Positions 41,101 through 44,100 of a DNA stretch of 64,000 nucleotides are shown here, piece by piece. The translations under genes and the position numbers were made by a program. The notes under the pieces are model-generated. The model did no database searches and had not been told where the DNA came from. It saw only the letters and a program-made list of their open reading frames with translations. The first letter of the stretch is position 1. The number at the start of each line of letters is the position of its first letter. The stretch is from Atriophallophorus winterbourni (taxonomy: Eukaryota > Platyhelminthes > Trematoda > Plagiorchiida > Microphallidae), in assembly GCA_013407085.1 (NCBI GenBank), contig JACCGJ010008406.1:62001-126000 (forward strand), read 5' to 3'.

Positions 41101-44100
41101 TAGATACCTTCATGCGACCTATTTACGAATTTAATACTGGCTTGCGATTGGCGAACACATCTACTCTGAGCAAAAAACGATGACAGGCGAGACGACGGCA
41201 AAACGCCGGTGCAATTCAAATTTCATCTGCCCAAGTAACTATAGTTGGCACAGCCAAGCGGTGGTTCGCCGGTGGTGCGTGTAAGCGAGACCAAATGAAG
41301 TAATCGGACGAGAGTTTTAATCAGTATACCGGTTGCAAATTCTAGTTTATCTAGCCAGAATGATGATTGAAAAGTTGGATGAATAATCAAATTCGGAAAT
41401 CGGTCTGGGCGGTTTCAAGTTATTAACACCAGTTCGGTTTTATTATTATTATTCAACTGATCAAAATACGGATGGTTCGTAAAAATAGCATTGTACGAAT
41501 AACTGTTTTGTATACAGCAAAACATTGTGGTGACATCCAAATATGTTGAAGTGTATCACGAATCACTATCCTCTGCTTACAAGACAAAATGCAATTCGAT
41601 GATTGCCGATACTAATCCGTGTTTTCCCGGTCTTTCCATTCAGAGACACGAAAAGGATTGCGCCAATGATGGTGAACCTTTCAAATCAGCCATGTAAAAT
41701 AGCTTTGGGAGGCAAGTGGAACCTTCCAGCGTTGGATGAATTCATAAAGAATACCACACGTGAATAATGTGGGATACTTTCATCATCTTTACTATTAAAA
41801 AGAAACATTTGTTTTGTTAATCGATTTTTAGGCGAGAAGAATTTGAAATAGTAGACTGGCATGTCTACAGTGACAAAGCTCAACCTTCCCTAAGTTTAAG
41901 CTGGACCCGCCGTTGACCACACAGAACAAGTAAACATGAAGAAAAGAATTAGCGAGGTAATTGCGCATGAAAACTTGACAATAAAAATTTGGAGGACTGC
42001 TTGAGAACTATGCAAACGTTTAAACAAAGTTATACTTGAATGCCACTGTTACATAGGGTTCGTAAAACGAACCACGATGTTCCAACACAGAATCACAAAG
42101 GGATTCTTGGTCAAGCAGTCGAGTATATAACAGACTGAAAAACAATTGAAAAACAAATATATTTCCTCATCAGGCCTCTGGTGCACAGCTAGGTTCGAAA
42201 CACGCTTCCATAGTCCTTTTCAGACAACATGCTTAACCCAAATCTACACCATAACAATGGATGTCCAACATATGCCAACAACAGTTTGAAAAATAACTGT
42301 GACAGCCTAGCAACCTGTTTAGTTGTAAAACAAAGTTATACTTGAATGCCACTGTTACATACGGTTCGTACAACGATGTTCAAACAAAGAATCACAAAGT
42401 GATTCTTGGTCAAGCACTCAAGGCGTTTATGGATGACCAAATTAATGTGTTTCTCACATCACCCGCACTTACACACCACTACCGGCTTCTGGCTGTTTGC
42501 CGTCATAAGGTGGATACAGTAAGATTAGGTTCAGTGGGCTTTGAAACAGTGGATAAGTGGTAAACCTAATCTTACTGTCTCCACCTGATGACCGCAAACC
42601 GTCAGAAACCGGTAGTGGTGTGTAAGTGCGGGGGATGTGAGCAATACATTACTTTGGTCATCCATAAGCTCATTGAGTGCTTTACCAAGAATTACTTTGT
42701 GATTCTGTGTTTGAACATCATGGTTCGTTGTGCGAACCCTATGTAACTGTGTCATTCAAGTATAACTTTGTTTACCACTTTACCACTGTTCCAAGGCTCA
42801 CTGAACCTGATCTCACTGTCTCCTCCTGATGACGGCAATCAGCCAGAAACCGGTAGTGGTGTGTAAGTGCGGGGGATGTGAGCTACACATTACTATGTTA
42901 CCGTTTGTTTTTAAGTCAGAGTTGACAGGCAAAAGAAATCTCAAATATATTGAAGAAACATAATCGTTATCCAGAATAAACTTGGGATCATTGATTCAGA
43001 AAATTCTTTAACAGTAGAAAATAGCATGAAATTATTCGAACTTTTTCGACAGAAAAATCCTGTACGAAGTTATCTGTTTGATGTCGTTACCAATTGGCCG
43101 TGCTGAGTCACCAAGTTCCTTTCTAGTTATGATTCACAGTCAGTCTAATATTTCTGTATATAGGTTGAACACAAATTTTTATCTTTGTTCAACTTCCGAA
43201 ATGTGTTGGCTCCAATCGGCTCAATTATTGTTAGAATCAAGGCCAATAAATAAGAATTCGAAACAGAGAGAAAATTAATTAACGAAAAAAGATTTGATTC
43301 GAGGTTGGACACAGCGTGTCTTGAAACAAACATCCATCAATCTAAATACGCTATCACGATGCGTCTTTTGTGAGCAGTTTGATAATAAGTTTGATAATAA
43401 TATCTACTGGTTAAAATTCAGTTCCTTGTACACAATTGCAAAGGCATGAATACAGATAGATAGCAATGGTGTGAGAAACATTCGCTGAAATGTAGACAAA
43501 ATTCACAAAAAATTCTGAACATGAAGAATGTGATGATGATATACTAGTGGAAACGGAGAATTCGAACTTAGCCAAATTGAATTCCAATAAAACAATTACT
43601 TGGATTGATTTAATGAAGGTCCACAGGAGCTGACGAATGGACTCTTCCTTGCTCAGCAATTTTACTAAACGCATCACCCGGAAAAGACGGAAGAAGTTCA
43701 CACTGAATTTTGTGGATTTGAATTCGGACTGTGGATAAATTAAGGAAGTAATCCATTAATTGAGCGAACATGAAGATTAGCAAGTATGCATGTATGATTC
43801 CATGTGTATTTGCATGTATGGATATGATTATAACAACATTGTCTAAATTTTAATTGAGATTAGAAATATGCTTTAGTGGCCAAACCCGTGTGCCACCACA
43901 GCTTGGTCAAATATAAGAATGTTTTCATCATATTACTGTAGGTAAATATTTTAAATAGCTTTTGTAGACTAATGTCAATCGCGAAATAAACAATTTCAAG
44001 ACATATGCCCTTGACCAGGCATTGGCCAATGCACGTATTCGCGTCTCATTTAAACCTATATTGATGCGATTACTGTTTCACTTTAGCTCAAAGAAAAACA

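Follow-up and report, generated by a model that had tools for sequence, protein, structure and literature searches.

A dispersed 240-bp hammerhead repeat of Atriophallophorus winterbourni as a likely non-autonomous retrotransposon, probably copied by a Penelope-like element

A non-coding unit of about 240 bp, present with more than 2,500 exact cores and carrying a type I hammerhead motif with a palindromic stem III, is likely a non-autonomous retrotransposon, probably copied by a Penelope-like element, and its RNA is predicted to cleave, if at all, as a dimer; we hold this composite reading to be probable, if well short of certain. Its insertions show target-site duplications and two preferred 3′ ends and have a likely link to Penelope, features of retro-insertion that were absent from a preliminary description of the repeat. 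One genome holds both the ribozyme repeats and Penelope-like elements, so that insertion ends can be compared directly, and the ends of the two are alike in their nearly equal distance from the cut, a similar terminal motif and a head-to-head habit. If confirmed, this would put a name to the enzyme behind the movement of ribozyme repeats, and the naturally occurring C.A family would probe the need for cutting in spread; in the accessible part of PMC7229834, Penelope-like elements are put forward only as a strong candidate for the mobilisation of metazoan retrozymes.

Hammerhead cores and their predicted fold

Scanning of the window, that is, the whole 64-kb stretch of DNA analysed here, with the pattern CTGATGA-N13-GAAACCGGTAGTGG showed five exact cores, with 0 mismatches over the 21 fixed letters, at 42585 (+), 42826 (+), 46251 (−), 62162 (−) and 62279 (+), and two cores with one mismatch each, at 62512 (+) and 54251 (−). 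The same scan gave weaker cores, including those at 11175 (+), 23818 (−), 27501 (+), 30587 (−), 40746 (−), 42476 (−) and others, with further weak ones at 28431 (+) and near 11394 (+). The core positions of the preliminary description (42826 +, 46251-46284 −, 62162-62195 −, 62279 + and 62512 +) were all recovered, with 42585 (+) added. Cleavage is predicted after A17, at 42614 in the core at 42585..42618 (+) and at 42855 in that at 42826..42859 (+); the latter had been ranked among the best, a place it does not keep, since pairing of CCUC with GUGG in its stem I leaves a U.U mismatch. Head-to-tail core spacings had been given as 241, 233 and 218 bp; the first two were reproduced (42585/42826 and 62279/62512) and the third was measured as 219 (11175/11394), and the unit length of about 240 bp was borne out. 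Matches to CTGANGA..GAAAC numbered nine in the window versus 0.37 in shuffles, but the nine are not independent events because the copies are related.

In the assembly (537,331,230 bases, 15,840 contigs), the core pattern with stem II partly fixed had 2,568 exact matches (1,272 + 1,296), compared to 0 for the reversed control pattern, and the core pattern scan of viral contigs gave 0 matches. The hammerhead core first proposed for the repeat is thus upheld by exact cores in the window and thousands of matches in the genome against an empty control. The search with a covariance model lacking stem III, proposed earlier as a check, was run on the window; the model, built from 12 window cores, matched 16 places at E < 2e-4, 12 of them being the cores used for building it, and one place at 0.066.

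The preliminary description had named one result that would tell against it, a core no better conserved than the rest of the unit. The results showed that in B, C and D copies 4 of 80 core cells differed from the subfamily A majority, versus 164 of 522 other cells (P 4e-8), and that the subfamily A copies departed from it in 2 of 112 core cells, versus 49 of 689 others (Fisher P 0.017). When B28 and four decayed relics were added, 26 of 160 core cells and 356 of 990 others differed in all ten non-A copies, and the core ranked 1 among 98 mask positions for conservation; the four relics alone showed no core contrast (20/64 versus 138/380). Part of the copies in these counts had been found by their core, a choice that favours such an outcome. 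For 41 copies (loci and window) outside the selecting pattern, the figures were 46 of 621 core cells and 307 of 3,070 others (P 0.024).

An alignment of 12 cores over 67 columns retained stem Ib, stem Ia (CCAC/GUGG), stem II and the palindrome ACCGGU. Across these stems and the palindrome 83.3% of 180 cells were paired, compared to 25.0-49.4% for slid partners, and 0 of 500 shuffles reached this level. The covariation score was 0.226 versus 0.150 ± 0.021; pairs changed on both sides numbered four, a count reached by 110 of 500 shuffles, and unconstrained RNAalifold favoured a shifted stem I without stem III. The pairing counts back the self-complementary stem III noticed earlier, in the form of the palindrome ACCGGU, loopless or nearly so. 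The cores have the CUGANGA and GAAA blocks, A15.1-U16.1 and H17 of a type I hammerhead, as well as a stem I internal loop and a loop II; stems I and II are paired, stem II of subfamily A without its first pair.

The 10.1-11.1 pair, normally G-C, is C.A in 109 of the 121 core regions, out of 134, that were complete enough for counting, the remainder being 7 T-A, 4 A-A and 1 G-C; most of these cores had been retrieved with a pattern of the core leaving 10.1, 10.2, 10.3, 11.2 and 11.1 free, and the 32 cores that were not pattern-selected had 26 C-A, 5 T-A and 1 A-A. What had been raised as a caution, C and A at this pair in subfamily A, is therefore the rule. In the window, the cores of group B, three in number, carry G-C: that at 54251..54284 (−) has G at position 17 and scores 25.1 bits for the Rfam type I hammerhead (threshold 34), that at 30587..30620 (−) has stem II GUGC/GCAC and A9 changed to T, and that at 28431..28464 (+) is diverged. 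The Rfam gathering score was reached by no A-type core of the window. Position 17 is A in 118 and T in 3 of the 121 cores, 89 of which were pattern-selected for A. According to the accessible part of PMC3088659, 10.1-11.1 is the most conserved pair after 15.1-16.1, and U-U at this place allows more cleavage than every other mispair. Judged by its sequence, the main subfamily with C.A is a predicted ribozyme and a doubtful catalyst.

When copy A62279 was co-folded as two strands, stem II hairpins, a 6-bp stem III and a closing stem I in shifted register were obtained; the dimer minimum was −34.3 kcal/mol and the exact double hammerhead lay at −29.9, i.e. 4.4 kcal/mol higher. In the other seven copies co-folded, the exact double hammerhead was 5.8 to 35 kcal/mol over the minimum, and it was the lowest-energy dimer in 0 of the 8. 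The earlier proposal that two copies pair as a double hammerhead agrees with the co-fold of A62279 in the stem II hairpins and the palindromic stem III, but not in the register of stem I. Self-cleavage of the unit RNA, if it occurs at all, is predicted only on pairing of two cores, because the motif is without a proper third arm.

Structure of the insertions

The feature at 42320-42895 is one head-to-head insertion. Its left half (42328..42564, −) is one full inverted unit with a core at 42476-42509 bearing two mismatches, and its right half (42565..42893, +) is about 1.4 forward units ending at site T1; what had been described as a head-to-tail pair at 42328-42897 is really this inverted unit followed by forward ones. 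The stretch 62013-62585 is laid out likewise, inverted unit first and forward units after. This second head-to-head insertion (62015..62581; cores 62162-62195 −, 62279-62312 + and 62512-62545 +) is flanked by the target-site duplication AGGTATGTGAGTA (left copy 62002..62014, right copy 62582..62594; 13/13 identity), which was equalled by 0 of 3000 random pairs and by 1 of 1500 in a wider scan. In such head-to-head copies the inverted unit could pair with the forward unit and would then compete with the double hammerhead.

A simple insertion of about 1.1 units (46219..46480, −; core 46251-46284) has a 10/11 duplication (46208-46218 / 46481-46491), as good as which were 6 of 3000 random pairs. 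Two copies are older: a head-to-tail dimer of group C (11132..11449, +; cores 11175-11208 and near 11394), which begins 21 bp past the end of an RTE-like ORF, and a group D copy (40700..40998, −; core 40746-40779), flanked by 9/9 GGAAATGAA at 40691-40699 / 40999-41007 that was spotted by eye. Within 40700-40998, a loop of unrelated-looking sequence separates inverted and forward parts. Flank comparison gave no clear target-site duplication for the copies at 42.3k, 11.1k and 42.0k.

An Rfam match to the microRNA mir-3165 at 42499-42595 was rejected, as it is actually the head-to-head hairpin of the element. Concerning an old master element behind the composite, four-way informative columns, few in number, stood at one for and two against; the composite subunits are about 10% apart and star-like. 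The transcript 62252-62581 was no more stable than shuffles (z −0.16). For the tail from the cut to T1, a hairpin was predicted in each of five pieces (z −2.32 to +0.06), which is suggestive at most.

Beyond the window, 86 loci were read, covering 91 of the 100 places listed among the 2,568; L009 and L010 were left out for their overlap with L003 and L004, whereas L053/L054 and L055/L056, which resemble duplicated stretches, were all kept in the counts. The insertion reference was a real unit from L075 (241 nt, non-coding, 44.4% GC) with the predicted cut after unit position 85. Every copy save the window's was fetched via the exact core, which biases the sample towards ends near the core.

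The 117 elements of the 86 loci and the window comprised 46 forward, 43 reverse, 28 head-to-head and 0 tail-to-tail (sign test 7e-9); with another reference unit, 24 head-to-head and 0 tail-to-tail were found among 108 elements. Head-to-tail runs of more than 1.15 units occurred in 31 of the 117. A target-site duplication score of at least 8 was obtained for 37 of 88 complete elements versus 1.3% of 1,303 mismatched flank pairs, and a score of at least 10 for 22 of 88 versus 0 of 1,303, the duplications of complete elements being 8-15 bp long.

Among the 144 outer 3′ ends, two concentrations stand out, at unit 124-129 and around 241-4, the unit border. One 6-nt bin, unit 124-129 (+39 to +44 from the predicted cut), holds 39 of them, with the modal T1 end at +42, and 36 fall outside both broad windows of T1 and T2. 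For the 88 ends of simple elements, 50 lie at T1 (112-139), 11 at T2 (235-9) and 27 elsewhere. Unit position 119 holds twelve of the 144, in part an effect of the alignment, which breaks off at this point for an older group. Both T1 and T2 terminate in ACTTTG in many copies (CACATTACTTTG and GTATAACTTTG), and ACATTG stands at T1 in the older group. The 86 5′ ends are more scattered, with no more than 15 per 6-nt bin, and 2 of them lie at the cut site (unit 84-88). Five 3′ ends (L048, L072, L012, L073 and L077), too few for a firm reading, were seen at unit 168-183. Counted from the cut they lie at +83 to +98, a range close to that of the second Penelope end cluster (+81 to +89).

T1 is paired with T2 in 17 of the 28 head-to-head copies, compared to a mean of 9.5 under random pairing (P 0.00035). 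LINE twin priming yields the same head-to-head orientation rule. However, the adjacency expected from one template was no better than shuffled (P 0.32 and 0.52), and twin priming on one RNA was rejected on this ground. A circular template copied for exactly one lap, as the two window copies had suggested, was likewise dropped, since this is not general among the 28.

The resident Penelope-like family

A Penelope-like reverse-transcriptase fragment of the candidate driver family lies at 49319..49981 (+), and a downstream fragment of the same element was recognised at 50210..50572 (+) by likeness to the open frame of locus L103, with no Pfam match alone. Relatives of the 49319-49981 fragment were scored for 150 of 10,536 first-look candidates and have open frames of up to 837 aa. 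Among the Penelope matches listed, tandem copies at about 2.84 kb lie on C5453, C8862, C10415 and C3374, and head-to-head copies within 6 kb on C9876, C12045 and C9354, with none tail-to-tail. The frame of 825 aa in L103 (421-2898) can be read as having a GIY-YIG-like end, and Pfam GIY-YIG is carried by a Penelope relative in Dicrocoelium dendriticum (66% over 35% of the query), which, like the RTE-like ORFs with DUF6451, suggests a flatworm host; the unit itself, non-coding and 241 nt long, has no Penelope-like ORF with RT and GIY-YIG.

As to the surroundings of the window fragments, 49319-49981 is 100% identical to a copy on contig C5273 (L089), which points to a duplicated or haplotype contig. 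A second decayed Penelope fragment (45013-45512, +) is similar to 50210-50690, and a decayed hammerhead-like stretch was noticed by eye beside it, near 45700. Of the frames 50923-51195 (−) and 48840-49169 (−), one belongs to a voltage-gated calcium channel of the L type (Ion_trans, with relatives named accordingly) and the second, without Pfam match, is taken as another exon; the Penelope fragment 49319-50572 lies between the two and is thus probably in an intron.

A hammerhead of the form CTGACGA..GAAACGTT (full form CTGACGAAGCTTCTGTGTCAGAAGTGAAACGTT) was found in 17 of 20 Penelope loci; in L103 it lies at 370-402, upstream of the open frame. Its stem III, read by eye from the fold, is a loopless ACGU, and Rfam gave no match on ten Penelope loci. 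The Penelope-type resemblance pointed out in the preliminary description was judged right, and the resident family carries a loopless hammerhead of its own. Among the 25 hammerhead occurrences in these 17 loci, 8 continued in tandem and 17 gave an end, L106 and L107, which share flanks, both being counted. The 17 3′ ends lie past the predicted cut at +24 (1), +41 to +48 (6) and +81 to +89 (10), and one of the six in the first cluster is exactly at CTTTG while five continue for 2-7 nt.

The T1 12-mer of the unit matched the Penelope 12-mer ending at +41 in 10 of 12 letters, tied best of 2,826 positions; in L091, which is one base shorter there, the match at that fixed place was 5 of 12, and the T2 12-mer matched that Penelope end in 7 of 12. 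BLAST of the unit against the 20 Penelope loci showed no end likeness beyond the CTTTG motif, and pieces of the unit in L100 and L091. In PAc, the Penelope/Poseidon of Anolis carolinensis, the protein initiates reverse transcription at two internal sites and elongates on both target strands; the principal site lies 111-118 bp into the ORF and the cut at 26, which puts this start 85-92 nt past the cut (PMC11167929). This is close to the second end cluster of the resident Penelope (+81 to +89), whereas the unit, unlike the autonomous, ORF-bearing PAc, ends mainly about 42 nt past the cut. A Penelope-like element is the likely driver of the copying of the unit.

Mechanism, alternatives and known systems

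In the mechanism that we propose, a Penelope protein would start reverse transcription inside the unit RNA, on both target strands. One cDNA would give a simple copy, and two cDNAs meeting would give a head-to-head copy, since joins with 3′-type outer ends follow if the two cDNAs, one per target strand, meet. Tandem or circular RNA would supply runs exceeding one unit. The hammerhead would be at best a processing aid, because C.A occupies 10.1-11.1 in the main subfamily and the cut is seldom the place where an insertion starts.

A real possibility, although we lean against it, is that a Penelope-like enzyme copies the units while the hammerhead of the main subfamily is near-dead and is kept for its overlap with a protein binding site. 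The CTGATGA and GAAACCGGT blocks are better conserved than their neighbours across groups, and the 32 unselected cores have A at position 17 in 29 cases and T in 3 (though B54251 has G), which speaks against this reading, whereas the C.A of 109/121 cores, the 2/86 5′ ends at the cut site and the lizard element, which inserts in vitro despite hammerhead mutants and cuts only with protein present (PMC11167929), agree with it. It is doubtful that Penelope spawned protein-less passengers that kept the hammerhead core and the 42-nt tail as their ticket and spread after the key pair had been lost, with the fold, not the cutting, being needed.

We consider it unlikely that the unit moves as a metazoan retrozyme, that is, that tandem transcripts are cut by the hammerhead, circularised by a host ligase and reverse-transcribed as circles. 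The unit is short and non-coding, of low GC (44.4%), with a type I hammerhead, and it resembles the metazoan non-LTR retrozymes of the accessible part of PMC7229834 (unit 170-400 nt, GC below 50%) in its size, head-to-tail runs (31/117), long duplications and absence of LTR. The same source describes an axolotl family that depends on dimers, its stem III being a single pair under a palindromic tetraloop, and ACCGGU of the unit can be read in this way; another axolotl family has U.U at the base of stem II, where the unit differs in having C.A. The architecture therefore has a precedent. However, uncut tandem RNA accounts for the long runs equally, few 5′ ends are at the cut site and the main subfamily has C.A. 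Moreover, the unit has a Penelope-like end signature and head-to-head copies, of which the accessible part of PMC7229834 makes no mention for amphibian retrozymes, and circular RNA is demonstrated for the latter. The amphibian precedent lessens the novelty of the fold, not that of the driver evidence; since amphibian retrozymes have a comparably weak palindromic stem III, what makes the repeat interesting is the evidence on its driver, together with the C.A pair.

Quite improbable is a SINE driven by an RTE-like LINE, from which the unit would have borrowed its 3′ end, e.g. that of 9771-11110. Although this ORF ends just ahead of the 11132-11449 dimer, and LINEs, too, show 5′ truncation, long duplications and inversion of their 5′ parts, the T1 and T2 12-mers found best matches of 6 to 8 of 12 after the two RTE-like stops examined, and no poly(A) run was visible past T1 or T2 in the contexts inspected. 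The dimer as the 3′ end of the ORF 9771-11110 was rejected, no shared end being found. A chance resemblance in a satellite repeat, in line with the silence of Rfam on A-type window cores, is extremely improbable in view of the reversed pattern (0 versus 2,568), the pairing counts and the 16 covariance-model matches below E 2e-4.

Penelope-like elements with minimal hammerheads that act as dimers were reportedly treated by Cervera and de la Pena in 2014 and Lunse et al. in 2017. Such hammerheads are also described in the accessible parts of PMC7761336 and PMC6155905. The unit is like them in its type I core, palindromic stem III and dispersed and tandem copies, and Penelope copies with such a motif reside in its own genome; in contrast to them, as far as these parts go, it is 240 bp long and non-coding, without ORF, and has C.A at 10.1-11.1 and an internal loop in its long stem I. 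For the SMalpha and W-element hammerheads of Schistosoma mansoni, the accessible part of PMC8490949 mentions no link to Penelope ends, unlike what is seen for the unit. In a search covering mostly titles and abstract openings, with subscription papers outside its scope, no report of ends shared by a ribozyme repeat and Penelope was found.

The window also contains remnants of RTE-like and other LINE ORFs at 452-1795 (−), 9771-11110 (+) and 63101-63586 (−), its RTE-like ORFs carrying DUF6451, and a long AT-rich inverted repeat at 28070-28121, which two microRNA families match far below threshold.
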